The notes under the pieces were generated by a model that saw nothing but the letters and a program-made list of their open reading frames with translations, was not told where the DNA came from and searched no databases. The translations under genes and the position numbers were made by a program. From NCBI GenBank assembly GCA_005881425.1, contig VBIC01000120.1:7739-40132 (forward strand): a stretch of DNA of 32,394 nt, given 5' to 3'. The stretch is from Chloroflexota bacterium (GTDB taxonomy: Bacteria; Chloroflexota; Dormibacteria; CF-121). Within the stretch, counting starts at the first letter, position 1; the number at the start of each line of letters is the position of its first letter. Shown here in pieces: positions 5,909 through 18,941 of this stretch.

Positions 5909-5924
5909 GCCGGCCTGCGGCCCC

Positions 5925-6806
5925 GTGAGGCTGGTATTCGCTGGGACGGGCGCCTTCTCGGTCCCCACCCTGCGCCGGCTGCATGAGTCCGGGCATGAGC
6001 TGGCCCTGGTCGTGACCCAGCCGGATCGCCCGGCGGGCCGCGGGCTGCGGCTGCGGTCCTCGCCGGTCAAGGAGGCCGCGTTGGGACTGGCCCTGGACCT
6101 CTTCCAGCCGTCGCGGGTTCGCGACCAGGACGCGATGGAGCGGATCCAGGCCGCCCGGCCCGCCGCGCTGGTGGTCGCCGCCTACGGTCAGATCCTGCCC
6201 ATCGACCTTCTCACCCTCGCGCCGCTGGGAGCGATCAACGTGCACGCTTCCCTGCTGCCCCGCCATCGGGGGCCCGCTCCCATCCCATGGACCATCCTCC
6301 TTGGCGACAGCCGCGCCGGAGTGAGCATCATGAAGATGGACGCCGGCGTCGATACCGGTCCCCTCCTGAAGCAGGAGTCCGTCGCGCTCCAGGGCGACGA
6401 GACCGCCCCCTGGCTGGAGAGCAGGCTGGCGGCCCTGGGCGCCGACCTCCTCCTCTCCACCCTGGACGAGCTGGCTCACGGATCCACCCGGCCGGAGCCG
6501 CAGCCGCAGCCCGCGACCGGAGCCACCTATGCCCGCCGTCTTTCAGCGGCGGATGGCGACCTCGACCAGGACCTGGCCGCGGCCGAAATCGACCGTCGGG
6601 TCCGGGCTCTCAGCGGCGAGCCGGGCTGCTGGATCACGCTGGGCAAGGCCCGGGTGAAGGTGCTGGAGGGCTCGCTCTCGAGCGCTCCGCAGGGCGCTCC
6701 AGGCCAGGCCCTTCACACCCGCGACGGTACCTACCTGATCCGGACCGTCCAGCCGCCGGGCGGCCGGCCGATGCCAGTCGAGGACTACCTGCGGGGAAGG
6801 CGATGA
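5925..6806 (+). CDS. fmt: Methionyl-tRNA formyltransferase
   Basis: It formylates Met-tRNA(fMet) using 10-formyl-tetrahydrofolate. The formyltransferase domain (residues 1-205) has FAGTGAFSVPTL, the folate-binding signature NVHASLLPRHRG with Asn 105 and His 107, and catalytic Asp 143 in GVDTGP. A C-terminal tRNA-binding domain follows and ends in TVQPPGGRPM. That domain looks about ten residues short between RDGTYLI and RTVQPP, where family members usually have a glycine-rich strand. Start is GTG 5925, 16 bases after def; the stop overlaps smpB as ATGA. Confidence 0.93.
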   Translation: MRLVFAGTGAFSVPTLRRLHESGHELALVVTQPDRPAGRGLRLRSSPVKEAALGLALDLFQPSRVRDQDAMERIQAARPAALVVAAYGQILPIDLLTLAPLGAINVHASLLPRHRGPAPIPWTILLGDSRAGVSIMKMDAGVDTGPLLKQESVALQGDETAPWLESRLAALGADLLLSTLDELAHGSTRPEPQPQPATGATYARRLSAADGDLDQDLAAAEIDRRVRALSGEPGCWITLGKARVKVLEGSLSSAPQGAPGQALHTRDGTYLIRTVQPPGGRPMPVEDYLRGRR

Positions 6807-7273
6807 GCCCACGCAAGCAGGACCGGGACACGGTCATCGCCAGCAACCGCGCCGCCTACCACAACTATTTCATCCTGGAGACCGTGGAGGCGGGCATGGC
6901 TCTGCGCGGCACCGAGATCAAGTCCTTGCGCGACGGTGGGGCCAACCTTCGTGAGGGCTTCATCCGGATCAGCGACGGCGAGGCCTTCCTGGTCAACGTC
7001 CACATCAGCCCTTACGAGCAGGGGACCGTCTTCAACCACGAGCCGCGCCGGGAGCGCAAGCTCCTGCTTCACCGGGCGGAGATCATCGCCCTGGGGACGA
7101 CCATCAAGCAGAAAGGGCTGACCCTGGTCCCACTGCGAATGTACTGGAAGGGCAACCGGGCCAAGCTCGAGATCGGGCTGGCCAAGGGGAAGCGCCTCCA
7201 CGACAAGCGGGAGGCGATCAGCGCCCGCGAAGCCCAGCGGGAGATGGATCGGGCCCGTATGCGCAACGCATAG
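6803..7273 (+). CDS. smpB: SsrA-binding protein
   Basis: It binds tmRNA and delivers it to stalled ribosomes during trans-translation. The 156-residue sequence is complete: N-terminal NRAAYHNYFILE, GTEIKSLRDG, NHEPRRERKLLLH, the KGLTLVPL strand, LAKGK, and a basic C-terminal tail DKREAISAREAQRE that enters the ribosomal mRNA channel. ATG 6803 overlaps the fmt stop by four bases. Its RNA partner gene ssrA begins about 47 bases downstream. Confidence 0.95.
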   Translation: MSPRKQDRDTVIASNRAAYHNYFILETVEAGMALRGTEIKSLRDGGANLREGFIRISDGEAFLVNVHISPYEQGTVFNHEPRRERKLLLHRAEIIALGTTIKQKGLTLVPLRMYWKGNRAKLEIGLAKGKRLHDKREAISAREAQREMDRARMRNA

Positions 7274-7319
7274 TCGGGGCGATCGCGGGGGAGAATCAAA
7301 GGGACTCCGGCTGCCTGGC

Positions 7320-7691
7320 GGGGGACCCAGGTCTCGACGGGGTAGTGGACTGCAAGATGGCGGGCCGTGTCGCCGAGCACGTAAAAGCGGCAAGGCTATA
7401 AACGCCAACAATCGCGAACTGGCCCTCGCTGCGTAAGTAGCGAAGCCAAACCGGGGCTAGACCCCGGCGCCGATCCGCTCCGCGTCAGCAGGAACGGAAA
7501 CCGGCGTTAAAGCTCGCTGACTCGCTCCCGGCGGGCGTCGCGGCCGCCGGGCGGACTCTCTACCGCGACTGGCCTTGACGGATCCGGTCCCACGGGAGCC
7601 CTCAAGGCGAGATCGAGAACCGGGACTACGCTCGTAGAGATCTTGCGGAACGCTGCTTCGGACGCGAGTTCGATTCTCGCCGCCTCCACCA
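7320..7691 (+). ncRNA. ssrA: Transfer-messenger RNA (tmRNA)
   Basis: The 5' end GGGGGACC with CTCGACGGGG and the 3' end with a T-arm (GCGAG-TTCGATT-CTCGC) followed by CGCCTCC-ACCA form the tRNA-like domain. The third acceptor pair is G.U, the alanine identity element; the last two positions of the seven-pair stem as I draw it do not pair, so the 5' end may be off by a base or two. The internal message lies at 7404-7436 and is followed by a pseudoknot-rich region. Immediate position after smpB is the common arrangement. About 372 nt, a normal length. Confidence 0.93.
7404..7436 (+). other. tmRNA proteolysis-tag reading frame
   Basis: Starting at GCC 7404 the frame encodes ANNRELALAA and ends TAA 7434-7436. 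The ALAA ending is the standard degron recognised by ClpXP-type proteases. The resume codon is inferred from the usual alanine start; AAC one codon upstream is a less likely alternative. Confidence 0.85.
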
Positions 7692-7716
7692 GTCGGCCGC
7701 AGTCAAGCGGCCGACT
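7691..7716 (+). terminator. Hairpin immediately after tmRNA
   Basis: A perfect 10-bp inverted repeat (AGTCGGCCGC and its complement) with a 6-base loop AGTCAA begins at the last base of the tmRNA CCA end. It lacks a T tract, so intrinsic termination is not certain; it could equally mark the 3' processing boundary. Confidence 0.55.
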
Positions 7717-7728
7717 GGCCGAACTTAC

Positions 7729-7862
7729 GCGCGCCATGGCGCCTCCGGGGCTCCGCGGGGCGCTCGCAGCGAAATTTGACGCAGCTCGCTTGCCTTGCGC
7801 CTCGCCCCTATGGCGCCGGCGCTTCACGCGCGAAAGCGCGCCCCCTGGCCTTCGGCCGGGGG
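7729..7862 (+). repeat. GC-rich intergenic repeat, copy 1
   Basis: This stretch shares blocks with the reverse complement of 15738-15866: the palindrome GCGCCATGGCGC (7731-7742), then GGCTCCGCGG, GCGCCTCGCC, GCCGGCGCT and ACGCGCGAA, in the same order and at similar spacing. It ends in a hairpin at 7841-7862 (CCCCC and GGCC pairing with GGCC and GGGGG, one bulged T). It lies between the convergent ssrA and lipoprotein genes. Confidence 0.55.
7841..7862 (-). terminator. Possible terminator of the lipoprotein operon
   Basis: A strong GC hairpin (9 pairs, TTC loop, one bulge) lies about 28 bases past the stop of the minus-strand lipoprotein gene. There is no clear T tract on either side. It is also the end of intergenic repeat copy 1. 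Confidence 0.35.
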
Positions 7863-7890
7863 ACCCCGACTCCAAGCTGGCGGGCGAGCC

Positions 7891-8469
7891 CTAGCTTGCG
7901 GGCTGGGCGAAGGTGAAGGACGTAAGGAGCGCCTGGAACTCGGACTGGCGGCTGGTTCCGGGTCCCTTCTCGATCTCGAAGGTGTCGCCATCGTGTTCCA
8001 GGATCACGATCAGCTCACCGGCCGCCGGGCCTTCCTGGGTCACGGCCACTCGGTCGGCGGCCTCACCCGCCACCGTGATCCCGGTCACGGAGTTCCCCTG
8101 GGCGATGCTCGCCTCGAGGGCGGCCTTGGGGCCGGCGAAGACCCGGATCGCAAGTGGGGGCTCGAAATCGGTCGCGGCGGGGACGTGCTGCGGCAGCCCG
8201 GCCGGGCCGAAGGCGACCACGCTCAGCGCCCCGCCGGCACCCGGTTCGGCGGTGTAATCCCGAGACACCCAGCCCCGCGGATAGCAGACCCGGTAGCCCA
8301 GATTGGCGTGCTGGTACCCCTGGGCGCCGGGGCAGGCCGAGGCCGGGACCGACGCCGGCGCCTGTACAGCGACTGAGTTGGCGTCGGAAGGGGCGCTGGA
8401 ATCGCAACCGGCCAGCGCAACGGTGAGCAGGAAGGCTGGGAGATACCGCCCCCCGCGGCGGCGCGTCAC
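7891..8469 (-). CDS. Putative lipoprotein of unknown function
   Basis: 192 residues. The N-terminus is a lipoprotein signal: a basic start TRRRGGRYLP, a hydrophobic stretch and the lipobox LAGC, so Cys 22 would be lipidated and the protein anchored outside the membrane. The rest has an Ala/Pro/Ser linker and then a compact domain beginning YQHANLGYRVCYPRGW and ending SFTFAQ, a layout seen in extracytoplasmic domains of the PsbP/LpqN type, but I cannot assign a family. Start is GTG 8469 with TAGGCT 7 bases upstream. It is the last gene of the 10599-7891 cluster. Confidence 0.75.
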   Translation of the reverse strand: MTRRRGGRYLPAFLLTVALAGCDSSAPSDANSVAVQAPASVPASACPGAQGYQHANLGYRVCYPRGWVSRDYTAEPGAGGALSVVAFGPAGLPQHVPAATDFEPPLAIRVFAGPKAALEASIAQGNSVTGITVAGEAADRVAVTQEGPAAGELIVILEHDGDTFEIEKGPGTSRQSEFQALLTSFTFAQPAS

Positions 8470-8476
8470 GCCGGAA

Positions 8477-8482
8477 AGCCTA
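8477..8482 (-). promoter_or_regulatory. -10-like TAGGCT upstream of lipoprotein gene
   Basis: On the minus strand TAGGCT ends 7 bases before GTG 8469, consistent with a leaderless transcript. It lies just downstream of the stop of the preceding membrane-protein gene. Confidence 0.35.
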
Positions 8483-8490
8483 GCGCAAAC

Positions 8491-9372
8491 TCAGAGCAAC
8501 CGCATGACGGCGTCGGCCAGCCACCATGCGGCAAGCCCGCCGGCCAGCGCCGGCAGGAGGCCGCCGAACCGTGTGATCCAGGCCACCGTGTAGGCGGGGC
8601 CGACGAGCAGGAGCGCGGCCGGGTTTGCCTTGCCCACGCCGACCCGGGCCTGCTCGGCCAGGGGCCCCGCCTCCTCGTAGGTGGGCAGGGAGTGGGCGGC
8701 GAAGGCCAGGCCCAGCCAGATCTCGATCCAGGTCAGCCAGGTGGCGGGCAGGTGGAGAACGGAGTGCGGCGCGAGTGCCGGAGCCAGGCAGACGACGGCC
8801 AGGACCAGGGCCACGAGTGTGGGCAGGAAGGCGATCGCCGCCGCCAGCCCGAGCTGGGGTGGCGCTTCGTAGACGGTGTAGGCGGCAGGGTCGTCGACCC
8901 GGAAGAAGACAGCCTCTTCGATCACGAGCCCCGACCGGTGGACGATCAGCACCTGCACCGCCGCGCGCATCACGACCGCTGGGAGGCCGATCAGGTGCAC
9001 CCCTTTTGCCAGCCGGAGCGCCGCGCCGGGAATCAGCCCCCTGGTCGCGGTGGCCCGGGCCAGCTCGACCGTGTACGGAGTGCCACGTGTGATGGCCGCC
9101 CGGGCCACGGTCCCGACCTGGCCCGCGCCCACGCGGACCACGGTGCCGAGCTGGTGGGCGCCATCCTGGATCAGGGGGGTGGCCTGCCGGCGCCAGCGCT
9201 CCCAGGGCAGGGATCGAATCCAGGTGAGGGCCTGTTCGTAGAGCGAGGGTCCCGGCGGTGCCGGCGGCTGCTTCCAGGCCGGCTGCTCGGGGCCAGGGCC
9301 TTCTGCGGCCGGCCCGCTCGCCGGCAGCTGGAACGGGAGGTCTTCCTGGATGGGGTCGAGTGCGCCGCTCAG
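8491..9372 (-). CDS. Multi-pass membrane protein of unknown function
   Basis: About 293 residues when started at CTG 9372, which overlaps the stop of the TPR gene as CTGA. Residues 1-75 form a Pro/Gln-rich soluble region (QEDLPFQLP, PPAPPGPSLYEQALTW); an amphipathic stretch with repeated Gly/Val/Ala follows. About four hydrophobic segments fill the C-terminal two thirds, with a conserved-looking acidic loop AHSLPTYEEAG. GTG 9141 is the first ordinary start, but the upstream 77 codons have the same codon use and look coding. I do not recognise a family. Its place between a TPR protein and a lipoprotein suggests a shared envelope role. Confidence 0.7.
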   Translation of the reverse strand: MSGALDPIQEDLPFQLPASGPAAEGPGPEQPAWKQPPAPPGPSLYEQALTWIRSLPWERWRRQATPLIQDGAHQLGTVVRVGAGQVGTVARAAITRGTPYTVELARATATRGLIPGAALRLAKGVHLIGLPAVVMRAAVQVLIVHRSGLVIEEAVFFRVDDPAAYTVYEAPPQLGLAAAIAFLPTLVALVLAVVCLAPALAPHSVLHLPATWLTWIEIWLGLAFAAHSLPTYEEAGPLAEQARVGVGKANPAALLLVGPAYTVAWITRFGGLLPALAGGLAAWWLADAVMRLL

Positions 9373-10358
9373 CTCGGGCCTCCGCGCGGATGCGTGGCCG
9401 TCCTGACCAGGGAGAGGAAGGCCTCGTTGTCGACCGTGTTGTCGAGCATGACCATGGGCTCGAAGTAGCGAGCGGTGGCCCAGGCCGAGAGGCCGGCGCG
9501 GCGATCGCCGTCGAGCAGGTAGCAGTAGGCCTGGTAGGCCCAGGCTTTGGAGGAATCAGGAACCACACCCACCGCCTGCTCCATCTGGGCCGCGCACCCG
9601 CCGTAGTCATGCTGGGCCAGCAAAGCCTTTCCGCGGCTGTAGTGCGAGAGCCCGGTGACGGCGCCTGGCAGCCCCGCCCCGGCCATCAGGACCAGGGCCA
9701 TAGTGCCCCCGACCACGATCATCACCCAGCCCGGGAACGCAGGAAGTCCCGCGCGTGCCCGGCGCAGCGGCAGGAGGGCGGCTTCATAGCGCACCAGCCG
9801 GTCGCTGAGCTCCAGGTCGGAGACCTCGGGCAGGGAGGGCTGGGCCACCCGGCGGGCGTCCTTGAGCAGGGCGACCGCGGTGGGGATGTCGCCGGCCGAG
9901 AAGCGCAGGTCGGCTTTGAAGACCAGGGCGTCGCGCGCCGCCGGGTCCTGGCGCAGCGACCGGTCCAGGAAGTCCTCGGCCAGCGCGGTCTCGCGCCGCC
10001 AGTAATGGATCATTCCCAGGCCCTGCAGCGCGGTGGCGTTCATAGGCTCCCGGTTGAGGACGGCCTGGTATTCATGGGCGGCTCCGGCGAAGTCCGAGGT
10101 CCGGATCTTGGCCAGGCCGAGCAGGTTGCGGGCGTCGATGAAGGTCGGATGGGCCTGCACCAGGTTGGCAAGGAGGGCCACGGCGGGCTGCGGGTCTTGC
10201 GCGCCGACGAAAGCGAAGGCCAGATAGTACGCCGCGTAGGCGTCGTCCGGGTTAAGGCGAACCTCCGCCGCGAGCAGCGGCAGCGCCTCGTCGAATTTGT
10301 GCCGGCGGATCAATGCCAGCCCGTCATTGATGGACACGGGGACCCTGGCCTGTCCCAA
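9369..10358 (-). CDS. TPR-repeat protein with one membrane segment
   Basis: 329 residues. Several tetratricopeptide-like repeats fill residues 10-190 (for example FDEALPLLAAEVRLNPDDAYAAYYLAFAF and the unit ending LNREPMNATALQGLGMIHY), then a hydrophobic segment GWVMIVVGGTMALVLMAG near residue 215, then another repeat-like region (YSRGKALLAQHDYGGCAAQM). TPRs scaffold protein-protein contacts; the partner here is unknown. The start is TTG 10358, supported by AGGAG about 8 bases upstream; GTG 10337 is an alternative. Confidence 0.78.
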   Translation of the reverse strand: MGQARVPVSINDGLALIRRHKFDEALPLLAAEVRLNPDDAYAAYYLAFAFVGAQDPQPAVALLANLVQAHPTFIDARNLLGLAKIRTSDFAGAAHEYQAVLNREPMNATALQGLGMIHYWRRETALAEDFLDRSLRQDPAARDALVFKADLRFSAGDIPTAVALLKDARRVAQPSLPEVSDLELSDRLVRYEAALLPLRRARAGLPAFPGWVMIVVGGTMALVLMAGAGLPGAVTGLSHYSRGKALLAQHDYGGCAAQMEQAVGVVPDSSKAWAYQAYCYLLDGDRRAGLSAWATARYFEPMVMLDNTVDNEAFLSLVRTATHPRGGPS

Positions 10359-10401
10359 GCAACGCTCCTGTCCCTGCGCCCTTGCGCGTCGCGAGCCGGC
10401 C

Positions 10402-10599
10402 TCAGGCCGCTTTCGGGTCGATCAGCCAGCGCTCGGCGATGTAGGCCAGGACCGCCCGGTCGAAGTCCAGGCCCCGCAGACCGGCCGTCGCCGGCCAGCT
10501 GGCGCGAACCTCGTCCTCGAGGCGGCGGTAGGCCTCGAGATCGAGTCCCTGGGCGAAGTCCCAGGCTCGCGCCGCCAGCTCCGCGTTCAGGGGTTTCAC
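10402..10599 (-). CDS. Small protein of unknown function (65 aa)
   Basis: A 65-residue, mostly helical, acidic protein (WDFAQGLDLEAYRRLEDEVRAS, then ending ERWLIDPKAA). GTG 10599 is preceded by AGGAAG, a weak ribosome site, and by TTATAG some 12 bases upstream. It lies 43 bases before the TPR gene and is probably the first gene of that operon. No family recognised. Confidence 0.55.
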   Translation of the reverse strand: MKPLNAELAARAWDFAQGLDLEAYRRLEDEVRASWPATAGLRGLDFDRAVLAYIAERWLIDPKAA

Positions 10600-10676
10600 A
10601 GCTTCCTGCCTCTATAACGTGGGAAGGCGGCAACAGGATTCCCTGCCAGTAGTGTCACGCTACGTCGGCAGCAACG

Positions 10677-10702
10677 GAGGCCGCGCCAGCGCCCGCGGCC
10701 TC
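10677..10702 (-). terminator. Hairpin at the end of the acyl-CoA ligase gene
   Basis: A 9-bp perfect stem (GAGGCCGCG with CGCGGCCTC) and 8-base loop begins inside the stop codon of the minus-strand ligase gene. No T tract follows. It separates the CoA cassette from the 65-aa/TPR operon. Confidence 0.45.
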
Positions 10703-12641
10703 AGGTCCTGAGCGCCCGGATCGGCTCCAGCGACGCGAGGTCGTCCATCGAGGACAGGTCGCCCGGCGGCTCTCCCAGGAACACGTTGCGGATCACGCGC
10801 CGGAGGATCTTCCCATTGCGCGTCTTTGGCAGCCGCGGGATGACGTGCACGGCCTGGGGCCGAAAGGGCTTGCCCAGCTCGCGTTCGATGCTCCCCGAGA
10901 CGGCGGCCGGAATGCTCGCCAGGTCGGCGCCCGGCCTGGCCACCACGAAGACGACCACCGCCTGGCCCTTGACCGGGTCCGGTATGCCCACGGCGGCCGC
11001 TTCCGCGACCGGGGTTCCATCCAGGGCCGCCGCCTCCAGCTCGGCTGGGCCGACCCGCTTGCCGGCGACCTTGATCGTGTCGTCCGATCGTCCCAGGATG
11101 AACCACTGGCCGTCCTGGTCGATCATGGCCCAGTCGCCGTGCACCCAGACACCTGGCCAGCGCGACCAGTAGGTGTCCAGGTAGCGCTGCGGATCCTTCC
11201 AGAAGCCGAGGGTCATGCCCAGGTACGGCTGGCGGACAACCAGCTCCCCCACCTGGCCCTTCACCGGCCGTCCCTGATCGTCGTAGACGGCCGCGTCTAC
11301 GCCCGGGATCGGGCCGGCGAAGCTACCGGGCCGGATGGGCGTGAGAAGGTTGCCCGATACCAGCCCGCCGCCGCACTCGGTCCCGCCCGAGTAGTTCATG
11401 ATCGGCACGCGCCGGCGGCCGACGCGGTCGAAGAGCCATTCCCAGGCCTCCGGCGTCCAGGGCTCGCCGGTCGAGGCCAGCACCCGGAGGGCGGGCAGCG
11501 GCTGGGCCTGGGCGAAGGCGTCGCCGTGGGGCATGAGGACGCGGACCAGAGTGGGCGAGAGTCCAAGGTGGGTGACCCCGTGCCCCGCCGCCACCGCCCA
11601 CACGCGCCCGGGGTCGGGATGGTCAACCGCGCCGTCGTAGAAGACTGCGGTGGCTCCCAGCATCATGCTCCCGAAGATCAGCAGAGGTCCCATCACCCAG
11701 CCGATGTCCGTGACCCACATGACTCGGTCCCCGGGGCCGACGTCCATGCCGTAGGCCCAGTCCTGCCCGGCCTTGATGGGCAGGCCGGCGTGGCCGTGGA
11801 TGGTGCCCTTGGGACGGCCGGTCGTGCCCGACGTGTAGAGCAGCAGGAGCGGGTCCTGCGGGCTCATGGCTTCCGTTTCCACTGGCTCACGCGCTCCCTG
11901 GACCAGCTCCTCCCAGCGGAGGTCGCGCCCCGCGGTCATCGGGATCCCGGCGGCGCCCGAGCATCGGACGACCACCACCCGCTCCACGCCGGGCAGGCCT
12001 GAGACCGCCTCGTCGGCAACCGGCTTCATCAGCACCGGCCGTCCCCGGCGGACGGCGCCGTCCGCAGTGATCAGCACGCGCGCGCCCGCGTCATCGAGCC
12101 GCTGGCGGATCGCCTGCGCCCCGAAGCCTGAGAAGAGCGGCACCACGATCGCGCCCAGCTTGGCGCAGGCCAGGACGGCGACCGCCGTCTCCAGCACCAG
12201 CGGCAGGTAGATCCCGACCGCCACCCCCCGGGTGACGCCGGCCGACTTCAGGCCCGCGGCCGCCCGCTCGACCTCGGCCTCGAGCCCGCCATAGGTGAGC
12301 GATCGCCTCGTACCTTCCTCCGTTTCTGCCGAGAGGGCGAGACGGTCGGGCGCGGTGGCGGCATGGCGACGGACAGCGGAGTCGTAGGCGTTGAGGCTGG
12401 CTCCCACGAACCAGCGCGTGAAGGGGACGCCGTTCGAGGTGTCCATCACCTGGCTGTAGGGGGTCCTGAAGACGATGCCGAGATCCCTTACCATCGCCTC
12501 CCAGAACCAGGCCGGCTCCTCGACCGCCTTGCGGCAGAGGTCCGGGTAGTCCCTCAAGCCGTGCCCCCTGAGGAAGCGGTGGAGACGGGTTCGCTCGCTC
12601 TGCTCCCGGGTCGGGGCCCACGCCGCCTGGACCACGCTCAT
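10701..12641 (-). CDS. AMP-forming acyl-CoA synthetase (acetyl/acetoacetyl-CoA synthetase-like)
   Basis: It would activate a carboxylic acid to its CoA thioester through an acyl-AMP. 646 residues. Seen: an N-terminal ACS-like domain (SLNAYDSAVRRHA), the P-loop-like LLYTSGTTGRPKG, WVTDIGW, NYSGGTECGGG, the hinge region GRSDDTIKVAGKRVGPAELE, and the C-terminal catalytic lysine in PKTRNGKILRR. ATG 12641 lies 4 bases after the stop of the CoA-transferase subunit, so the three genes form one operon. Substrate is not readable from sequence; the coupling to a family I CoA-transferase suggests use of an organic acid degraded through CoA thioesters. Confidence 0.88.
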   Translation of the reverse strand: MSVVQAAWAPTREQSERTRLHRFLRGHGLRDYPDLCRKAVEEPAWFWEAMVRDLGIVFRTPYSQVMDTSNGVPFTRWFVGASLNAYDSAVRRHAATAPDRLALSAETEEGTRRSLTYGGLEAEVERAAAGLKSAGVTRGVAVGIYLPLVLETAVAVLACAKLGAIVVPLFSGFGAQAIRQRLDDAGARVLITADGAVRRGRPVLMKPVADEAVSGLPGVERVVVVRCSGAAGIPMTAGRDLRWEELVQGAREPVETEAMSPQDPLLLLYTSGTTGRPKGTIHGHAGLPIKAGQDWAYGMDVGPGDRVMWVTDIGWVMGPLLIFGSMMLGATAVFYDGAVDHPDPGRVWAVAAGHGVTHLGLSPTLVRVLMPHGDAFAQAQPLPALRVLASTGEPWTPEAWEWLFDRVGRRRVPIMNYSGGTECGGGLVSGNLLTPIRPGSFAGPIPGVDAAVYDDQGRPVKGQVGELVVRQPYLGMTLGFWKDPQRYLDTYWSRWPGVWVHGDWAMIDQDGQWFILGRSDDTIKVAGKRVGPAELEAAALDGTPVAEAAAVGIPDPVKGQAVVVFVVARPGADLASIPAAVSGSIERELGKPFRPQAVHVIPRLPKTRNGKILRRVIRNVFLGEPPGDLSSMDDLASLEPIRALRT

Positions 12642-12645
12642 CGCC

Positions 12646-13407
12646 TCAATCGCCTCCCTTGCCCCGATGGTCTCCGGTCCAGAAGCCCTGCGGATCGGCG
12701 TGCCGGATGTAGGCCAGCTCCTCCTGGGTGGGAGGTTCGGTGACCGCAGGCGTCCCATCGCTCTCCACCGCGAAGCCGGTCGCGGCCCGCACATGCGCCA
12801 GGCTGACCTCGGGATGCAGGCTCCTCAAGCGGAAGCGTCCCTGACGAAGGTCGAAAACGCCCAGCGTGGTGATCAGGGTGGCCGGACCGCCACGCCGGCG
12901 TCCGGGGAAGTGGCCCGGCGAGGTGACGTAGGAGACGCGCTCTCGGAAGCGGCGGGGCTCGTGCTCCATGATCAGCACGGTGCGCTGCGCCAGGCTGGCG
13001 ATGTCCTGCCCGCCGCCGCTGCCGGGAAGGCGGACCGGACGCCCCTCGCCGCCGGCCCAGGTAGTGTTGAGATTGCCCAGCGGATCGACCTCGGCGCCGC
13101 CGATGAAGCCCACGTCGACCCGGCCTTGCTGCAGCAGGCTCATCACGTCGAGCAGTCCCACACAGGCCAGCGCGCCGGCGATGTTGGGGGGATCGCCCAT
13201 GGTGTAGATGAAGGCCTCGGCCGGACGGTCGCGGATGATTCCATTCTCGAACAGTCCCACGGCCTCTGGGGCGTGTGTGGCCTTGGCCAGGCCGAAGCCG
13301 AGAAGCGGCAGGCGCATGCCCACGAAGACGACCTCCCGGTCGTGGATCTCGCGGCCGGCCGCGACCACCATCAGCTCGCGGCGGGTGTAGGTAGCGATTG
13401 CGCTCAT
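12646..13407 (-). CDS. Family I CoA-transferase, subunit B (GctB/IpdB-like)
   Basis: 253 residues. Motifs of the glutaconate CoA-transferase B group are visible: MGDPPNIAGALA, GFIGGAEVDPLGNLNTT (around the position that carries the catalytic Glu in this family), GGGQDIASLA, MEHEPRRFRERVSYVTSPG, TTLGVFD and SLHPEV. It pairs with the A subunit encoded upstream to move CoA between carboxylic acids. ATG 13407 overlaps the A-subunit stop (ATGA). IpdB of steroid degradation is the other close group; which substrate applies is open. Confidence 0.85.
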   Translation of the reverse strand: MSAIATYTRRELMVVAAGREIHDREVVFVGMRLPLLGFGLAKATHAPEAVGLFENGIIRDRPAEAFIYTMGDPPNIAGALACVGLLDVMSLLQQGRVDVGFIGGAEVDPLGNLNTTWAGGEGRPVRLPGSGGGQDIASLAQRTVLIMEHEPRRFRERVSYVTSPGHFPGRRRGGPATLITTLGVFDLRQGRFRLRSLHPEVSLAHVRAATGFAVESDGTPAVTEPPTQEELAYIRHADPQGFWTGDHRGKGGD

Positions 13408-14321
13408 GGCGCGAAGTTGGCGGCGGCTGCCAGCCGCTGATCCCGGACGCGCAGCCGGTCGAGCGCCGGCTGGCCCAGGTGGGCGAGGTAGGCGTCACGG
13501 CTGGCGATGCCGAGGACCCATTCGTCGAGCCAGGCCCGGTAGCCTTCCAGGGTGCGCGAGCGGCCGTGATAACCGAGAAACGTCTCGAAGTCGCGCCGCC
13601 AGTATCCCTGGACCGAGGCCGGCAGTGCGCCACCGGGCACCTCCACCACGGCATCCACCAGGAGGCCGGGGATGACCGTCCGGTTGGGATCCGAGCGGAT
13701 CACTTCGTCCGCCACGATCTCCTCGCAGGTCACGATGGTGCGGCGCGCGGCGTAGACGCCCTCCAGAGTGAGCCCCAGGTTGCCCCACAAGTGGGCGTTG
13801 CCGTGCCGGTCGGCGCGCTGGGTGTGGACGATGGTGACGTCGGGCCGGATCGCTCCCACGGCCAGCAGCGGCGGGCCGCCGAAGGGATCGTCCTGGGGGC
13901 GGATCCGGGGGTGGTCGCGGACGATGTCGCTCCCGATTCCGGTGAGCGTGGGCAGGTAGGGCACGCCCATGGCGGCCGCCTTGAGGCCCAGGCCGACCGT
14001 GAAATTGCTGTGCTCCTCGACGGTGATGGGATGGGGTATGCCTTGCTCGAGCGCGCGCCGGAAGCAGTAACCCGAGCCCCCGGCCACGTTGCCGACCCAG
14101 GCCGCGATCACGCGGGTCACGCAGCCGGCGCCGATCAGCTGGTCGAAGGCCATGTCGGAGATCGGGCCGATCAGGGTGAGATCCCTGCGCCGCTGACGGA
14201 TCAGCTCGTGGACCGCGGCGAAGGGGATGCCCGATTCCAGCGCCAATCCCAGCGCGATCGCATCGGCGTCGTGGACGTGGGCCGCGATCGCGTCCCCCAG
14301 TGATTGACGCTTGTCGCTCAT
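13404..14321 (-). CDS. Family I CoA-transferase, subunit A (GctA/IpdA-like)
   Basis: 305 residues from ATG 14321. The N-terminal SLGDAIAAHVHDADAIALG, HSNFTVGLGLKAAAMGVPYLPT, HTQRADRHGNAHLWGN and the C-terminal VDAVVEVPGGA followed by a YWRRDFETF helix match the glutaconate/IpdA alpha-subunit group. The glycine pair after IALG in many homologues is not obvious. First gene of the gctA-gctB-ligase operon; a TACCAT box lies 9 bases before the start and only 44 bases separate it from the divergent zinc-ribbon gene. Confidence 0.85.
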   Translation of the reverse strand: MSDKRQSLGDAIAAHVHDADAIALGLALESGIPFAAVHELIRQRRRDLTLIGPISDMAFDQLIGAGCVTRVIAAWVGNVAGGSGYCFRRALEQGIPHPITVEEHSNFTVGLGLKAAAMGVPYLPTLTGIGSDIVRDHPRIRPQDDPFGGPPLLAVGAIRPDVTIVHTQRADRHGNAHLWGNLGLTLEGVYAARRTIVTCEEIVADEVIRSDPNRTVIPGLLVDAVVEVPGGALPASVQGYWRRDFETFLGYHGRSRTLEGYRAWLDEWVLGIASRDAYLAHLGQPALDRLRVRDQRLAAAANFAP

Positions 14322-14330
14322 CCTGGCCTG

Positions 14331-14336
14331 ATGGTA
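14331..14336 (-). promoter_or_regulatory. -10-like TACCAT upstream of CoA-transferase operon
   Basis: TACCAT on the minus strand ends 9 bases before ATG 14321. It faces away from TAGGCT at 14354 on the plus strand, so the 44-bp gap appears to hold two back-to-back near-leaderless promoters. Confidence 0.4.
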
Positions 14337-14353
14337 CCCAGAGCGGCAAGAGG

Positions 14354-14359
14354 TAGGCT
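14354..14359 (+). promoter_or_regulatory. -10-like TAGGCT upstream of zinc-ribbon gene
   Basis: TAGGCT ends 6 bases before GTG 14366, the spacing expected for a leaderless mRNA. No Shine-Dalgarno sequence fits in the gap. Confidence 0.4.
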
Positions 14360-14365
14360 GACACC

Positions 14366-14755
14366 GTGACCGAGTGTCCGCGCTGCGGCCGCACCCTGCC
14401 CGAGGACACGGCATTCTGCCCCCACTGCGGGGCCCAGCGGCGGGTGCCCACGATGGAGGGCGACGTGATCGATGCCAAGCAGGCTCCGGCCCCGACTCGT
14501 GGGGCGAATCCCTGGGCGGCCGCGGCGCTGTCGATCATCCCCGGACTGGGACACGTCTACGCCGGCGCCCCGCTGCGCGGGCTCGCCTTCTTCGCCGGCG
14601 TCGTCGGTCCCGAGGTACTGGGCACCGAGCTCGACCTCACAGTGATCGGCGACGCGATCGGGATCCCGCTCAATCTCGGCGGGCTCGGGCTCTGGGCCTT
14701 CTGCACCTTCGACGCCTACCGAACCGCGCGCCGCCAGCGTGCGATCTCGGCCTGA
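14366..14755 (+). CDS. Zinc-ribbon membrane protein, TM2-like
   Basis: 129 residues. The N-terminus is a zinc ribbon with two CxxC knuckles (CPRCGR and CPHCGA, residues 4-23). A short linker precedes hydrophobic segments starting AAALSIIPGLGHVYAG with a following glycine-rich run, as in TM2-domain or related small membrane proteins. Function unknown. GTG 14366 is chosen because the first zinc knuckle begins three residues later. Confidence 0.8.
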   Translation: MTECPRCGRTLPEDTAFCPHCGAQRRVPTMEGDVIDAKQAPAPTRGANPWAAAALSIIPGLGHVYAGAPLRGLAFFAGVVGPEVLGTELDLTVIGDAIGIPLNLGGLGLWAFCTFDAYRTARRQRAISA

Positions 14756-14801
14756 AATCCTGAAACGATCCCCGCAAGCTTGACTCTTTAAGCTCGGATT
14801 C

Positions 14802-15215
14802 GTGGCTCGGGATCGACGGGTTCTTCTGGTCGAGGATGACCCGGCCACCGCGGAGCTGTTTCTGGAGCAGCTGCGGGGGGACGGCGTGCCCATCGAGCAC
14901 GCGGCCACGGCGCGCGCTGCCGATCAGTTCGTGCGCAGCCGGCGGCCGGTTCTGGTCCTCGTGGACTTGAGCCTGCCCGACATGGCCGGCCGGAGCCTGG
15001 CCGAGTCGTGGGCCTCCGATCCGCTGCTCGGCGAGATCCCGATATGGATCGTCAGCAATTCGGATGCGCAGGACAACCTCTGGTGGCACGAAGTCCCGAA
15101 CGTGCAGCGCTACTTCTTGAAGTCGCGCGTCTCCCTGGGGCGGCTCTCGGTCGAGATCCGCGCTACCCTCGGACTGCCCTACGGCGACCGCCTAGTGAAC
15201 CGGCTCGCCCGTTAA
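14802..15215 (+). CDS. CheY-like single-domain response regulator
   Basis: 137 residues forming one receiver domain: acidic pair in LLVEDDP (residues 8-14), phospho-acceptor Asp in LVDLSLPD (about 52), Ser in IVSNSD at the switch position, and Lys in YFLKSR (about 107). No output domain. Start GTG 14802 has TAAGCT 7 bases upstream. No histidine kinase is encoded nearby, so its partner lies elsewhere. The stop shares TTAA with the stop of the convergent lipoprotein gene. Confidence 0.88.
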   Translation: MARDRRVLLVEDDPATAELFLEQLRGDGVPIEHAATARAADQFVRSRRPVLVLVDLSLPDMAGRSLAESWASDPLLGEIPIWIVSNSDAQDNLWWHEVPNVQRYFLKSRVSLGRLSVEIRATLGLPYGDRLVNRLAR

Positions 15216-15676
15216 CCGCTGGTGGGCGTCAGGCCCGGCGTGGCTACGAACCACTTGCCGCCGACGCCGTCGCCGTAGACGTCCCCGCTGTCCTTGTCCT
15301 TGCTGTAGGTGTACAGGGGATGGCCGTTGTACAGGACCTGGTGGCCGTTGGCTCCGTCCAGCGTGCTCAGAGTTCCGGTCAGGCCGGCGGGCGCCTGCAG
15401 GCTACCGGTGGGCGCCACCAGCGGGGGCCAGCTGGCCGCACAGCCTCCGGTACAGACGATCATGGTCGCGCTGTCCGGCTTGAACCAGTAGAGCGTGAGC
15501 CCCTGCTGATTGGTGAGGACGGTCTCGGATTTCCCGCTGACAGTTTTCGTCGCGGTCATCACGATCGAGGCCTTGGCCGACCTGGTGGCGGCGGGGGTCG
15601 CGACGGAACCGCAGGCGGCGATCGCCAGCACGGCGGCGCCAGTGAGCGCCCACCTGGCAAGGCTGGATCCAATCAT
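15212..15676 (-). CDS. Secreted lipoprotein of the WPP-repeat (Lipoprotein_15-like) type
   Basis: 154 residues. Signal peptide with lipobox IAAC (Cys 22), then a domain with the signature VLTNQQGLTLYWFKPD, CTGGCAASWPPL, QVLYNGHPLYTYSKDKDSGDVYG and GKWFVATP, matching the COG4315 secreted-repeat family of unknown function. One repeat pair is present. ATG 15676 has GGAG about 8 bases upstream, one of the clearer ribosome sites in the window. Convergent with the response regulator. Confidence 0.85.
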   Translation of the reverse strand: MIGSSLARWALTGAAVLAIAACGSVATPAATRSAKASIVMTATKTVSGKSETVLTNQQGLTLYWFKPDSATMIVCTGGCAASWPPLVAPTGSLQAPAGLTGTLSTLDGANGHQVLYNGHPLYTYSKDKDSGDVYGDGVGGKWFVATPGLTPTSG

Positions 15677-15737
15677 GTCCTGACTCCTTTGGGCTGAGAT
15701 GCGGCGCGATGCCGCCCTTCTCTACGTCCCCGGGTTA

Positions 15738-15866
15738 CGAGCCCGCCGGGCGAGTCGCGCTTCGCGCGTCAGCGCCGGCGGCGGGAAGGCGAGGCGCGAG
15801 CATCCGAGCCGGCCCGCTACAGTGTGGCGGCGAGGGCCGCGGAGCCTCGCAGGCGCCATGGCGCGG
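15738..15866 (-). repeat. GC-rich intergenic repeat, copy 2
   Basis: Read on the minus strand it begins directly behind the usp stop codon with the palindrome GCGCCATGGCGC (15853-15864) and then follows the same block order as copy 1 at 7729-7862 (GGCTCCGCGG, GCGCCTCGCC, GCCGGCGCT, ACGCGCGAA). It ends in a short GCCCG-CGGGC hairpin at 15741-15751. This fills the gap between usp and the lipoprotein gene. Confidence 0.55.
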
Positions 15867-16436
15867 CTAGGTTCCGGTCGGTATCAGGGCCACCTTCTGG
15901 CGCGGCACCCGATCGATCAGGACCTCGCAGGGCGCTTCGCGCATGACCTGGTCCGCGATCCGCCCCAGCGGGCCTTCATTGGGCCGGTAGTGATAGGAAA
16001 TCCCCATCACGATCAGATCCACTCCTTCCTCACGCGCGATCTCCACGATCCGATGAGCCGCCTGACGGGCGGCGGCTACCCTGGTCTGCGGCTCGATCGC
16101 GTGCTGCATGGCGAGGAAGGCTGCGGCGTCGAGCGCCCCCTGAATCCTGGGGTCGCGATCAGGCACTACCAGTGGTGACTGCAGCGGGATCTCGTGCACG
16201 TAAACGATGATCATCTGGGCCTTGTGACCCTGGTTGAGCCGGGCGGCGAGCTCCACGGCACGTACCGAGGCTCCGAGGTCGATGATCGGAACCATCACCT
16301 TGCGGATGGCCTGCACCGAGCGCACCGTGCTGGTGGCGCCACGCGGCGCGGGCGGCGGCACCCGCAGCATCCAGCCCAGGGTGCCGGCCAGGCCGATGGT
16401 GAAGGCGACCGCCACCAGAAGCCCGACGGCGCTCAT
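15867..16436 (-). CDS. Universal stress protein with N-terminal membrane segment
   Basis: 189 residues. A hydrophobic N-terminus (LLVAVAFTIGLAGTLGWML) precedes a UspA-type domain: KVMVPIIDLGASVRAVELAARL, IIVYVHEIP, DLIVMGISY and a C-terminal PLGRIADQVMREAPCEVLI. The usual ATP-loop glycines are only partly kept. Membrane-tethered Usp domains are often regulatory partners of transporters. Start ATG 16436 overlaps the preceding small gene as ATGA. Confidence 0.82.
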   Translation of the reverse strand: MSAVGLLVAVAFTIGLAGTLGWMLRVPPPAPRGATSTVRSVQAIRKVMVPIIDLGASVRAVELAARLNQGHKAQMIIVYVHEIPLQSPLVVPDRDPRIQGALDAAAFLAMQHAIEPQTRVAAARQAAHRIVEIAREEGVDLIVMGISYHYRPNEGPLGRIADQVMREAPCEVLIDRVPRQKVALIPTGT

Positions 16437-16612
16437 CGGTCTCGGGCGGCAGCCTGCAGCCGCCAGACGCCGAATGCGATCATGCCAATCCCGGCCACGG
16501 CGTAGGGAAGCGACCGCACCTGGACCAGGTCGCGGAGCAGGATCAGGGCGCCGAGGACCAGCGCCAGCCAGCCCACCAGGCGGGTGTAGCCTCCGCGGAT
16601 CAGGTTCAGCAA
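16433..16612 (-). CDS. Small two-helix membrane protein (59 aa)
   Basis: From TTG 16612 the frame encodes 59 residues with two hydrophobic segments, LVGWLALVLGALILL and LPYAVAGIGMIAFGVW, and a basic C-terminus. It lies 7 bases after the TrkA-N gene stop and overlaps usp by four bases, so it is almost surely cotranslated with both. The start is inferred from operon spacing, since no ATG or GTG is available. Confidence 0.65.
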   Translation of the reverse strand: MLNLIRGGYTRLVGWLALVLGALILLRDLVQVRSLPYAVAGIGMIAFGVWRLQAAARDR

Positions 16613-16619
16613 GGTGGGA

Positions 16620-17036
16620 TCATGACGGTGTGGGCGCTGCCTGCTGGAAGAAGCGCTCGACCTTCTCCGCGCCCAGGGTGGTCGGACAGATCGTCTCCAG
16701 GCCCAGGTCCGCGTAGATGCTCTGACGTTCGGGATCGTAGATGCGGCAGATGACGCGCTTGACGCCGAAGACGTGCTTGGCCAGTTGAGCCGCCATGATA
16801 TTGGTGGTGTCGGAATCCGTGACCGCGACGAAGGCCTCGGCCCGGTCCACTCCGGCGCGCCGGAGGACGTCCTCATCGACGGCCGAGCCGAGCACCATCT
16901 CTCCCGTGAACTCCTCGCCCAGCCGGCTGAAGGGCCGTTCGCTGGCGTCCACCACGGTGACGTCGTCCCCCTCGGCGCTGAGCCACCGAGCCAGGCTGGC
17001 GCCGACTCGACCGCAGCCGACGATGAGCGTGCGCAT
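16620..17036 (-). CDS. TrkA-N (RCK) domain protein
   Basis: 138 residues, a single Rossmann domain: IVGCGRVGASLARWL at the N-terminus, VVDASE with the ribose-binding acidic residue, GSAVDEDVLRRAGVDRAEAFVAVTDSD and NIMAAQLAKHVFGV. Such domains bind NAD(H) or nucleotides and gate potassium transporters. The TrkA-C domain is absent and no channel subunit is encoded here. First gene of a trio with a 59-aa membrane protein and a membrane-anchored Usp. TAGAAT lies 13 bases before ATG 17036. Confidence 0.87.
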   Translation of the reverse strand: MRTLIVGCGRVGASLARWLSAEGDDVTVVDASERPFSRLGEEFTGEMVLGSAVDEDVLRRAGVDRAEAFVAVTDSDTTNIMAAQLAKHVFGVKRVICRIYDPERQSIYADLGLETICPTTLGAEKVERFFQQAAPTPS

Positions 17037-17049
17037 GCCTGCACAACCT

Positions 17050-17055
17050 ATTCTA
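17050..17055 (-). promoter_or_regulatory. -10-like TAGAAT upstream of TrkA-N gene
   Basis: TAGAAT on the minus strand ends 13 bases before ATG 17036, leaving a 5' leader of only a few bases. No clear -35 element. Confidence 0.4.
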
Positions 17056-17125
17056 CGCGTGGGTTTTCGGCGATGGCCCTTCCCGCCGGCAGCGCGCGGG
17101 ACCGTTTAGCGCCCAATTCGGGCGG

Positions 17126-17139
17126 GTATACGCGTATAC
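17126..17139. promoter_or_regulatory. 14-bp palindrome upstream of dnaK
   Basis: GTATACGCGTATAC is a perfect palindrome 62 bases before the dnaK start. It stands out from the GC-rich surroundings and contains a TATACG that could act as a -10 box. No CIRCE (TTAGCACTC) or HAIR (CTTGAAT) heat-shock operator is present, so this is the best operator candidate for dnaK. Function is inference. Confidence 0.4.
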
Positions 17140-17186
17140 GTATTCGCAAAGCCCGGTGGAAGGCCCCGCTGGACCGCTGACGGGCC

Positions 17187-17193
17187 GGAGGAG
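17187..17193 (+). promoter_or_regulatory. Ribosome binding site of dnaK
   Basis: GGAGGAG lies 8 bases before ATG 17202. It is one of the few strong Shine-Dalgarno sequences in the window and fixes the dnaK start. Confidence 0.7.
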
Positions 17194-17201
17194 AAATCGG
17201 T

Positions 17202-18941
17202 ATGGCAAAGACTGTTGGAATCGATCTCGGGACGACCAACTCGGTCGTTGCCGTCATGGAAGCCGGCGAGCCCGTGGTCATCGCGAACGCCGAGGGCGGC
17301 CGGACCACGCCGTCGGTGGTCGCGTTCACGAAGTCGGGGGAGCGGCTGGTGGGCCAGCTGGCTCGGCGCCAGGCCGCGGTCAACCCCGAGAACACGGTCT
17401 TTTCGATCAAGAGGTTCATGGGCCGCAAGTTCGAAGAGGTAGACCGCGAGCGGAAGATGGTGCCCTACCGCACCCTCGCTGGCAAGGACGGCCGGGTCGA
17501 GGTCGAGATCCAGGGCCAGCGCCACACACCCGAGCAGATCTCGGCCATGATCCTGCAGAAGCTGAAGACCGACGCCGAGTCGTATCTCGGTGAGAAGGTG
17601 ACCGACGCCGTGATCACGGTCCCTGCCTACTTCAACGACTCTCAGCGGCAGGCGACCAAGAACGCCGGCCAGATCGCGGGGCTCAACGTCATCCGGATCA
17701 TCAACGAGCCGACCGCCGCGGCGCTCGCCTACGGGCTGGAGAAGAAGGAGAACGAGAAGATCCTGGTCTTCGACCTGGGAGGCGGCACCTATGACGTGTC
17801 CGTGCTCGAGGTCGGCGAGGGCGTCTTCGAGGTCAAGGCCACCAACGGCGACACCCACCTGGGTGGCGACGATTACGACCGGCGCCTCGTCGACTACCTG
17901 GCCGATGAGTTCAAGCGCGAGCAGGGCATCGACCTGCGCAACGACCGGCAGGCGCTGCAGCGGCTGACGGAGGCCGCCGAGAAGGCCAAGATCGAGCTCT
18001 CCAGCCGTCCCGAGACGGACGTCAACCTGCCCTTCATCACCGCCGACCAGAACGGCCCCAAGCACCTGGACATGAAGATCACGCGGGCCAAGTTCGAGCA
18101 GCTGACGGCAGACCTCACCGACAAGTGCGTCCAGCCGTTCAACAGCGCTCTCAAGGACGCGGAGCTCGGGCCGGGCGACCTCGACGAGGTCATCCTGGTC
18201 GGTGGCGCGACCCGGATGCCCGCCATCCAGGAGCTGGTAAAGCGGCTCACCAACGGCAAGGAACCGCACCGCGGAGTCAACCCCGACGAGGTCGTCGCGG
18301 TCGGTGCCGCGATCCAGGCCGGTGTGCTGAAGGGCGAGGTCAAGGACGTACTTCTGCTCGACGTCACGCCGCTATCGCTCGGCATCGAGACTCTGGGTGG
18401 AGTGATGACCAAGCTGATCGAGCGCAACACCACCATCCCGACCTCCAAGAGCCAGATCTTCTCCACGGCTTCGGACAGCCAGCCGTCGGTCGAGATCCAT
18501 GTTCTGCAGGGCGAGCGGGAGATGGCATCCGCCAACAAGACACTGGGCAAGTTCCATCTCGACGGCATCGCGCCGGCGCCGCGGGGCATGCCTCAGATCG
18601 AGGTGACCTTTGACATCGACGCCAATGGGATCCTGAACGTGCGGGCCAAAGACCTCGGCACGGGCAAGGAACAGAAGGTGACGATCACCGCCTCCACGAC
18701 CCTGAACAAGGACGAGGTCCAGCGGATGGTGAAGGACGCCGAGGCCCACGCCGAGGAGGACCGCAAGCACCGTGAGGAGGTCGAAGCCCGCAACCAGGCG
18801 GACAGTCTTGTCTACCAGGCTGAGAAGCTGCTGGCCGACAACGCGGACAAGATCGACAGCGGTCTCAAGGACGAAATCCAGGGCAAGATCGAACCCGTCA
18901 AGCAGGCCCTCAAGGACAACGATGCCGCCCGCATGAAGTAG
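17202..18941 (+). CDS. dnaK: Hsp70 chaperone DnaK, interrupted near the C-terminus
   Basis: ATP-driven folding chaperone. The nucleotide-binding domain (1-385) has GIDLGTTNS, the phosphate loops [10 protein letters not shown] and LVGGATRMP, and the interdomain linker [13 protein letters not shown]; the substrate domain follows to about 505, then the helical lid. Frame runs 579 codons and meets TAG at 18939-18941. Beyond it the same frame continues for 41 codons to TAG 19065-19067 and ends with the conserved DVVDADFKEV tail. The lid also seems to lack about 15-20 residues between AARMK and QIYRQAQ, so a small deletion may have created the stop. No grpE or dnaJ is adjacent. Confidence 0.93.

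Follow-up and report, generated by a model that had tools for sequence, protein, structure and literature searches.

Three intergenic gaps in a 32,394-nucleotide stretch of Chloroflexota DNA (the window) probably hold members of a superfamily of composite palindromic elements that act like REP/BIME repeats. As far as draft genomes show, the superfamily is lineage-restricted, being found in one family of soil Chloroflexi. The likeliest view is that these are non-autonomous hairpins, which the host tolerates or employs as structures at 3' ends.

Elements in three gaps of the window

Two of the gaps contain copies of one element (family A) and the third contains a related element (family B). The elements, their parts and their neighbours are as follows, in positions of the window:

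6803-7273, smpB (Pfam SmpB)
7275-7691, plus strand, the tmRNA gene ssrA, lying upstream of copy 1 (ARAGORN; Rfam RF00023)
7723-7863, plus strand, family A element, copy 1, after the ssrA end at 7691 and before the stop at 7891 of a convergent gene (blastn, family of 13 places; model R2, 93.8 bits, copy in training set; fold z -3.12)
7731-7822, plus strand, P1 of copy 1, a long imperfect hairpin (minimum-energy fold; consensus structure of 41 copies with pair changes on both sides)
7827-7840, plus strand, P2 of copy 1, a CGCGC-GAAA-GCGCG hairpin (the helix pairs in all 41 copies, and 39 of them have the GAAA loop)
7842-7862, plus strand, P3 variant of copy 1, CCCCTGGCC-TTC-GGCCGGGGG (fold; alignment)
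7891-8469, minus strand, convergent gene on the far side of copy 1 (nothing in Pfam at E <= 0.001)
15212-15676, minus strand, gene downstream of copy 2 (Pfam Lipoprotein_15)
15735-15872, minus strand, family A element, copy 2 (R2, 74.0 bits, in training set; 74% identical to copy 1 by blastn)
15756-15768, minus strand, P2 of copy 2 with a shortened loop, GAA (alignment; read from the sequence)
15867-16436, minus strand, usp gene, upstream of copy 2, its stop codon overlapped by the 5' end of copy 2 (Pfam Usp, 9.6e-19)
27814-27950, minus strand, family B element in the third gap, with a GNAT gene (27470-27814, plus strand) ending on its left and a trypsin/PDZ gene (27962-29134, plus strand) beginning on its right (blastn, 15 near-complete genome copies; model R3, 144.2 bits, in training set)

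An earlier note on this DNA had described a repeat common to the gaps after ssrA and usp, at 7729-7862 and 15738-15866. The repeat was borne out as a single element of about 140 bp, with sharing far beyond the palindrome first noticed; the limits were revised to 7723-7863 on the plus strand and 15735-15872 on the minus strand. Where the note had left room for no more copies, or for scores no better than shuffled sequence, a blastn search of the genome with copy 1 gave 13 places at E <= 2.1e-7, the query counted, and the next match had E 0.2. Copy 2 was among them, inverted, with 74% identity and E 1.2e-10. The genome search proposed for the palindrome itself, GCGCCATGGCGC, found three sites, but the sequence is not diagnostic: the third place (contig C128) lies outside the model matches and is not an element, and GCGCCATGGCGC was dropped as a family marker.

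Over the whole window, the best three of 28 R2 matches were the three named gaps, at 93.8 and 74.0 bits for copies 1 and 2, which are both in the R2 training set, and 13.8 bits for the third, which is insignificant alone (E 0.26; fourth match 13.5 bits). In turn R3, whose training set contains the family B copy of the window, placed copy 1 second best over the window (19.2 bits, E 0.024), with nearly the same start and on the same strand. The diverged relative that the note had suspected at 27822-27945 is real, but it lies on the opposite (minus) strand and is a member of a sister family, B. Alignment of the third gap in the plus orientation was misleading and was discarded.

Paired structure and copy number

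Family A is laid out as P1, a long imperfect hairpin, P2, a hairpin with a GAAA loop, and P3, a short palindrome. In the consensus of 41 copies, 95.1% of cells are paired, and 22 of the 35 pairs have changed on both sides in 168 cells, where shuffles gave 49.2 such cells and slid structures no more than 35; these figures lean towards pairing, because that one alignment also supplied the structure and a structure model had found most of its rows. Pairing beyond chance was also found in the 12 copies of the own genome. In the P2 helix, two of the five pairs show double-sided changes in some of the copies, and the P3 type of copy 1 is common to one other (L006/L042) among the 12 aligned own-genome copies. 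Single folds were more uneven: copy 1 folded better than its shuffles (z -3.12) and copy 2 no better (z +0.68), the latter being one of two without clear gain among eight copies folded singly (the other with z -1.08). Furthermore, the reverse strand of two copies folds equally well as the forward strand. A kink-turn in P1 was considered and dropped by inspection; the tandem UC/UC mismatch (36 of 41 copies) is GA/AG on the other strand, and there is a bulge two pairs away. In a search of the window, and of eight loci at E <= 5, against Rfam, only tRNA and tmRNA reached their cut-offs. Two matches to mir-6579 over P1 scored 23.7 and 22.9 bits, below the cut-off of 47.

The covariance models proposed in the note recovered further copies. 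Model R1 gave 13 strong family A copies in this draft genome, 12 of which had trained it, and R2 gave 102 places in 17 of the 18 genomes of the taxonomic family (drafts, 75-95% complete), 41 of which had trained it, at 2-13 copies per positive genome. With R1 and stricter filters, none of 43 same-class genomes of other families had a copy; viral contigs searched with an exact pattern gave no matches, nor did plasmids searched by blastn. Three weak places from the own genome brought the total to 105, and one without a locus was dropped, leaving 104 copies for analysis. Only four of these overlapped a called gene, with genes called by a custom codon-usage script instead of a standard caller. Family B has 15 near-complete copies in this genome at 85-100% identity by blastn, the query counted, plus fragments.

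Placement at gene ends and likeness to known repeats

Gene-end placement was then examined across these copies. Leaving out four edge copies and the four that overlap genes, the 96 copies with both neighbours called were located in 54 tandem, 31 convergent, and 11 divergent gaps, compared with 67, 6, and 35 among 108 element-free gaps. Convergent gaps were enriched (p 8e-7) and divergent gaps depleted (p 4e-4), both p-values being optimistic because copies in shared gaps are not independent. Of 67 sense upstream genes, 27 had a stop that ended -9 to 0 nt relative to the element start, and 14 had one ending 14-17 nt upstream of it; among 49 right-hand genes with the 3' end facing the element, the stop overlapped the last 2-3 nt in 17. 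Tandem gaps held 36 sense and 18 antisense copies (p 0.02), so the placement that the note saw in copies 1 and 2, with the element starting downstream of a transcribed gene and reading the same way, is a preference but not a rule, both orientations occurring.

Identity as intrinsic terminators found no support. A hairpin followed by a T run was absent at copies 1 and 2, and a scan for canonical terminators over positions 5000-24999, a stretch that does not include the third copy, found seven against 6.4 expected, which is chance level. Ordinary gene-end hairpins (z -0.41, n = 75) were slightly stronger than those in coding sequence (-0.07, n = 155; p 0.03), but not stronger than those before starts (-0.25, n = 119; p 0.32), which leaves a terminator role without support.

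REP and BIME repeats are described as extragenic palindromes, mosaic or clustered, with complementary stem changes; they lie mostly between convergent and unidirectional genes, and their termini supply stop codons of the neighbours (PMC3733652, PMC2817692). The elements here are likewise extragenic, imperfect palindromes in many dispersed copies, with several palindromic modules in mosaic (mosaics judged by eye) and complementary stem changes; they favour convergent and tandem gaps, avoid divergent ones, and overlap neighbouring stops with their termini. This profile, mostly downstream of genes, supports the note's suggestion of REP- or MITE-like elements or structured 3' ends. On the other hand, the unit is about 140 bp with a P1 of about 92 nt, compared with 20-40 bp for REPs, and the family A load of 2-13 copies differs from that of REPs, put at usually more than 100 copies per genome in one account (PMC2817692) and, for many families, at 20-100 copies or fewer in another (PMC3733652).

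The proposed check for a REP-associated transposase came out negative: none of the 18 draft genomes of the family had a Y1/RAYT transposase match (PF01797), compared with 5 of 14 control genomes, and mobilisation of the IS200/605 or RAYT type was rejected on this ground. CGTC-tagged REPs are families reported to be without a dedicated transposase (PMC3733652). The elements resemble them in that none was found in the 18 draft genomes, but in 13 of the 15 family B copies aligned (counted by eye) a CGTC comes just after a predicted hairpin and not at the element end. T. roseum belongs to the Chloroflexi, the phylum from which the elements come. GTAG REPs are reported there as palindromic repeats (PMC3733652). 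Copies here are dispersed, and GTAG is rare at family A ends, being in the last 8 nt of four of the 91 copies of at least 120 nt, with CGTC in the last 12 nt of one, the 3' end counted. By description, the elements are also similar to RU-1 (ERIC) and other MITEs, being of similar size, intergenic, and probably non-autonomous. RU-1 is a small mobile sequence of enterobacteria, 127 bp long, intergenic, and non-autonomous (PMC2759123). Integron attC sites were weighed informally and set aside, given ends of opposite polarity and dispersed copies.

States of shared sites and their explanation

Across genomes, a single gene end can carry a full copy, an inverted copy, P3 only, P2 and P3 only, another module, or nothing. 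By eye, family A is found within family B, P3 follows family B, an insert of about 57 nt is common to both families, and P3 units stand in runs of two or three. Exact P3 patterns occurred at 45 places (32 inside known elements, 4 within 60 nt, and 9 elsewhere); as most are inside known elements, P3 is thinly sampled as an independent unit. Clusters hold 64 of the 104 copies, and both orientations were found in 10 of the 20 shared-gap clusters. Such sharing could reflect old inherited sites and not mobility. The comparison of identities took the full-length copies of genus g4: shared-gap pairs had medians of 0.76 in the same orientation (n = 37) and 0.77 when inverted (n = 18), no clear excess over the 0.75 of 1825 other pairs (one-sided p 0.09 each), yet 9 of the 55 shared-gap pairs were more alike than 97% of other pairs, so inheritance probably explains some copies. 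As the sole account, inversion in place of an inherited copy was rejected on these medians, the nine pairs notwithstanding.

A reading in which the gaps are occupied by descent, with P1 evolving very fast by compensatory change and with neither exchange nor movement, draws on those nine pairs and on shared gaps that keep their outer tips (e.g., one gene end in G017, G013, and G010). We consider it very unlikely, given the lack of excess in the medians, the inverted copies in half of the clusters, and the discordance of flank and P1 identity in 25 chosen pairs (rows with flanks near 0.4 represent one copy at a contig start): a pair with flanks 95 and 87% identical has a P1 only 72% identical, whereas P1 is 94% identical in two pairs with flanks of 69-74 and 86-87%, and 96% identical in an inverted pair with flanks of 71 and 82%. 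A true MITE appears quite unlikely; it would descend by deletion from a DDE transposon, have the ends of the long form (GCAGTTACACAGCGA ... TCGCTGTTCTGC) for its terminal inverted repeats, and be moved by a transposase encoded elsewhere in the genome. Some long-form copies are indeed bounded by related inverted sequences beside stop codons (by eye), family A is nested in family B, and a gene end that is empty or nearly so in several genomes carries a complete family A copy in another; nevertheless, many copies are without the long-form ends, and no target-site duplication was readable by eye at three gene ends. Moreover, no Pfam family was common to more than two of 63 flanking proteins scanned (64 were listed, for genomes G000 and G003), although only 25 of 98 families were named, which leaves room for a transposase among the remainder.

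Possible, though doubtful, is a structured non-coding RNA or 3'-UTR family that acts as RNA (3' stabiliser, attenuator, or Rho-dependent terminator), is selected, and has spread by duplication. The GNRA-type GAAA loop (39 of 41 copies) on a covarying stem and the sense preference in tandem gaps would fit it, as would the 28 G-U against 11 A-C cells at paired columns, but this strand signal is weak because the G-U cells stem from 11 pairs and 15 of them from two. Both orientations at the same gene ends, sites empty in relatives, and the absence of any Rfam family above its cut-off argue against it.

We favour, with fair confidence, REP/BIME-like composite elements: short non-coding hairpin modules (P1, P2, P3, and others) that are scattered, probably recombine with each other, and persist where a GC-rich hairpin would be least harmful, just after stops and above all between convergent genes. 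Their copy number, mosaic make-up, pairing, placement and varying site states are observed, whereas their function and mover are inferred. New sites would arise when modules are copied into gene ends, and at many occupied sites the inner hairpin may have been replaced or flipped via recombination or repeated insertion. Transcripts ending at the elements would carry hairpins that probably hinder 3' decay or read-through. Against this explanation, no transposase or recombinase is tied to the elements, and the visual comparison of three gene ends showed no readable target-site duplication. It also seems rather unlikely, if worth stating, that the elements form an exchangeable hairpin-cassette system, in which the sites at gene ends remain and their long hairpin is exchanged, flipped, cut down to P2-P3, or lost. 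The process would not need an HUH transposase (it could be template switching or gene conversion among the dispersed palindromes, or involve a recombinase of unknown kind), and close relatives would then end the same genes in different 3' structures.

The elements raise the question, also posed by CGTC REPs (PMC3733652), of how REP-like repeats can spread when there is no RAYT, and the many shared gene-end sites that are empty, full, partial, or inverted offer direct material for it. The strong covariation seen here accompanies mobile-like behaviour, a caution for the prediction of non-coding RNAs. Finally, covariance models R1-R3 make this unannotated repeat a searchable family.

Element copies in the window and in related genomes

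The three gaps that an earlier note had connected, two of them through a shared palindrome, each carry an element of about 140 bp built of hairpins. The relevant features of the window are as follows:

6803-7273: smpB
7275-7691: tmRNA, tag ANNRELALAA, directly 3' of smpB
7723-7863, plus strand: family A element after ssrA (copy 1)
15735-15872, minus strand: family A element after usp (copy 2)
27814-27950, minus strand: family B element (third gap)

That the repeat superfamily is real is well supported. A blastn search of the 2.92-Mb, 227-contig draft genome with copy 1 returned 13 places with E ≤ 2.1e-7, the query included, and beyond these no match better than E 0.2. Copy 2 was among them, inverted (74% identity, E 1.2e-10); the note was right to relate the two copies. 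Its expectation of further copies was also borne out by a covariance model built on 12 family A copies (R1), which found 13 strong places (12 belonging to its training set) and 3 weak places in the same genome. The palindrome itself occurs three times in the genome, just two of these within elements. In an unfiltered scan of the window with a second model (R2, trained on 41 copies including copies 1 and 2), the three gaps ranked first to third of 28 matches (93.8, 74.0, and 13.8 bits), the fourth-best match scoring 13.5 bits against 13.8 for the third gap.

The third gap, proposed as a possible diverged relative, does contain an element, a minus-strand member of a second family. With this element as query, blastn found 15 near-complete copies in the own genome (85-100% identity, query included), plus fragments. 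The model built from these 15 copies (R3) scored the third-gap copy at 144.2 bits; its second-best match was copy 1 (19.2 bits, E 0.024), with the correct strand and register. Over 62 loci from relatives and the own genome, R3 gave 10 matches with E ≤ 0.01 (9 distinct places, 6 in genome G002), and all its matches coincided with R2 copies. Because R2 and R3 each match the other family, weakly in both directions, families A and B are probably remote relatives. Covariation in family B was low because its copies are too alike: 3 of 40 pairs showed it, with a covariation term of +0.49.

R1 matched 17 of 61 genomes, namely the own genome and 16 of the 17 other members of its taxonomic family, and none of 43 same-class genomes outside it; this search used stricter filters and lost some weak matches. 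R2, run on family genomes only, found 102 places in 17 of 18. An exact pattern occurred in 15 named genome contigs, all titled Chloroflexi MAGs with alike sample labels. An exact-pattern search of viral contigs gave no match. Furthermore, no plasmid matched copy 1 by blastn, and only tRNA and tmRNA reached the Rfam cut-off in the window and 8 loci. At L188:2001-2276 (G005:C46), two family A copies stand in direct tandem with an overlap of several bases.

Paired structure and mosaic make-up

In A orientation, family A begins with an ACTTAnC-like start, followed by a long imperfect hairpin (P1), a GAAA-loop hairpin (P2), and a short palindrome of several types (P3). P1 keeps a UC/UC tandem mismatch in 36 of 41 copies; P2 reads CGCGC-GAAA-GCGCG or a compensated variant, with GAAA in 39 of 41. 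In a sequence alignment of 41 copies, most found with R1, 95.1% of cells were paired and 22 of 35 pairs showed two-sided changes. Both sides had changed in 168 cells, whereas shuffles gave 49.2 and slid structures no more than 35. Over the slid structures the consensus has an advantage, being taken from this same alignment. The 12 own-genome copies alone gave 7 of 34 pairs and 19 such cells (7.9 in shuffles). Among eight copies folded singly on the plus strand, six reached z-scores of -2.49 to -5.19, the weak folds being copy 2 (+0.68) and L007 (-1.08). In L009 and L010 the forward strand has no folding advantage over the reverse one, so folding carries no strand signal. G-U cells outnumber A-C cells (28 versus 11), an excess that stems from few pairs.

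Inspection by eye found family A nested within family B (L034, L038), family B followed by P3 (L244, L246, L249), P3 in runs of two or three, and a ~57-nt insert common to copies of both families. This GC-rich insert, which ends in CGTGGGCCGGCGGGCCCGG or nearly so (L256, L257, L260, L048 near 1501, G003:C9:13, G010:C254:201), may be a third small family. Two exact P3 patterns occurred at 45 places, all within the taxonomic family, and nowhere in 43 other genomes; reversed-pattern controls gave none. Known elements contained 32 of these places, another 4 lay no more than 60 nt from one, and the other 9 were elsewhere. Many genus g3 copies (L216-L226, G002) have a GCTAAAG-/GCTGAAG-like stretch and a long P3 instead of the GAAA hairpin, and in sequence terms form a further subfamily. 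Two gene ends in G015 (L273, L287) bear the same other hairpin module, CGCGCGCGAAGCGCGCAGCTTTAGCG, once beside a family A-like tip, and the same gene end in L306 (G003) and L319 (G016) bears another P1-like module, then P3 units.

Placement and turnover at gene ends

Genes were taken from a codon-usage caller, and 96 of 104 family A copies had callable neighbours on both sides. These occupied 54 tandem, 31 convergent, and 11 divergent gaps, compared with 67, 6, and 35 among 108 element-free gaps (30-600 bp, same loci and window). Among 67 sense neighbours upstream, the stop codon ended at -9 to 0 nt relative to the start of the element in 27. In another 14 it ended 14-17 nt ahead of the element, and some of these copies carry an additional tip resembling CAGTTACACAGnG. 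On the far side, 17 of 49 opposed stops overlapped the last 2-3 nt of the element. Copies of at least 120 nt (n = 91) had a stop triplet within the first 8 nt in 59 cases and a reverse one within the last 6 nt in 30, counts with no null for comparison. A start shortly after a gene 3' end, in the direction of transcription, describes many copies, but tandem gaps held 18 antisense copies beside 36 sense ones (p 0.02). Placement p-values are optimistic, since gene ends common to several genomes were counted repeatedly. The flanking proteins were diverse: of the 63 scanned, at most 2 shared any one Pfam family (25 of the 98 families are named).

Flank matching assigned 64 of 104 copies to 20 clusters, 10 of which contained both orientations, and left 40 single. 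At three gene ends traced through the family, the stretch after the stop held a full element, an inverted one, P2 with P3 alone, P3 alone, another hairpin module, or nothing. In the own genome, an ORF that by eye resembles a helix-turn-helix transposase comes after the stop at one orthologous gene end (L281, G000:C46). In the median, elements sharing a gap were not more similar than those from different gaps (identity 0.76 for same-orientation and 0.77 for inverted pairs versus 0.75; one-sided p 0.09 each), with one cluster that links two gaps via related flanks counted as two. The result is mixed, as 9 of 55 shared-gap pairs exceed the 97th percentile of identity, and some copies were thus probably inherited. 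Steady-change simple inheritance does not explain the whole shared-gap picture: in a chosen set of 25 pairs, a P1 of 72% identity has flanks of 95/87%, one of 94% has flanks of 69/86%, and, in an inverted pair, one of 96% has flanks of 71/82%. Exchange, inversion, and repeated insertion are each possible on these data.

Relation to known repeats and possible function

In the available text of two papers (PMC3733652, PMC2817692), REPs are 20-40 bp long, GTAG- or CGTC-tagged, lie mainly between convergent and unidirectional genes, and often give TAG stops to adjoining genes; GTAG REPs, which Chloroflexi are known to carry, are tied to RAYT, and CGTC REPs to no dedicated transposase. The present elements resemble REPs in that they are palindromic, lie in similar places, show complementary stem changes, and supply stop codons, but differ in size, composite architecture, the lack of a tag, and the lack of a detected Y1 gene. 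They are therefore described as working like REPs rather than filed as REPs. The REP-associated transposase to be looked for did not appear: PF01797 (Y1) was found in 0 of 18 family genomes (drafts 75-95% complete), with 5 of 14 control genomes positive. Titles and abstract openings of the literature, mostly outside subscription papers, described no such elements in this lineage. The elements are best read as REP/BIME-like mosaic elements; as a superfamily they are of an ordinary kind, with an unusual build and turnover.

A role at the ends of transcripts would fit where the elements lie, their preference for the sense orientation in tandem gaps, and the GAAA loop. Canonical terminators were at chance level in window positions 5000-24999. 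Hairpins at other gene ends exceeded those of coding sequence (p 0.03) and not those before starts (p 0.32).
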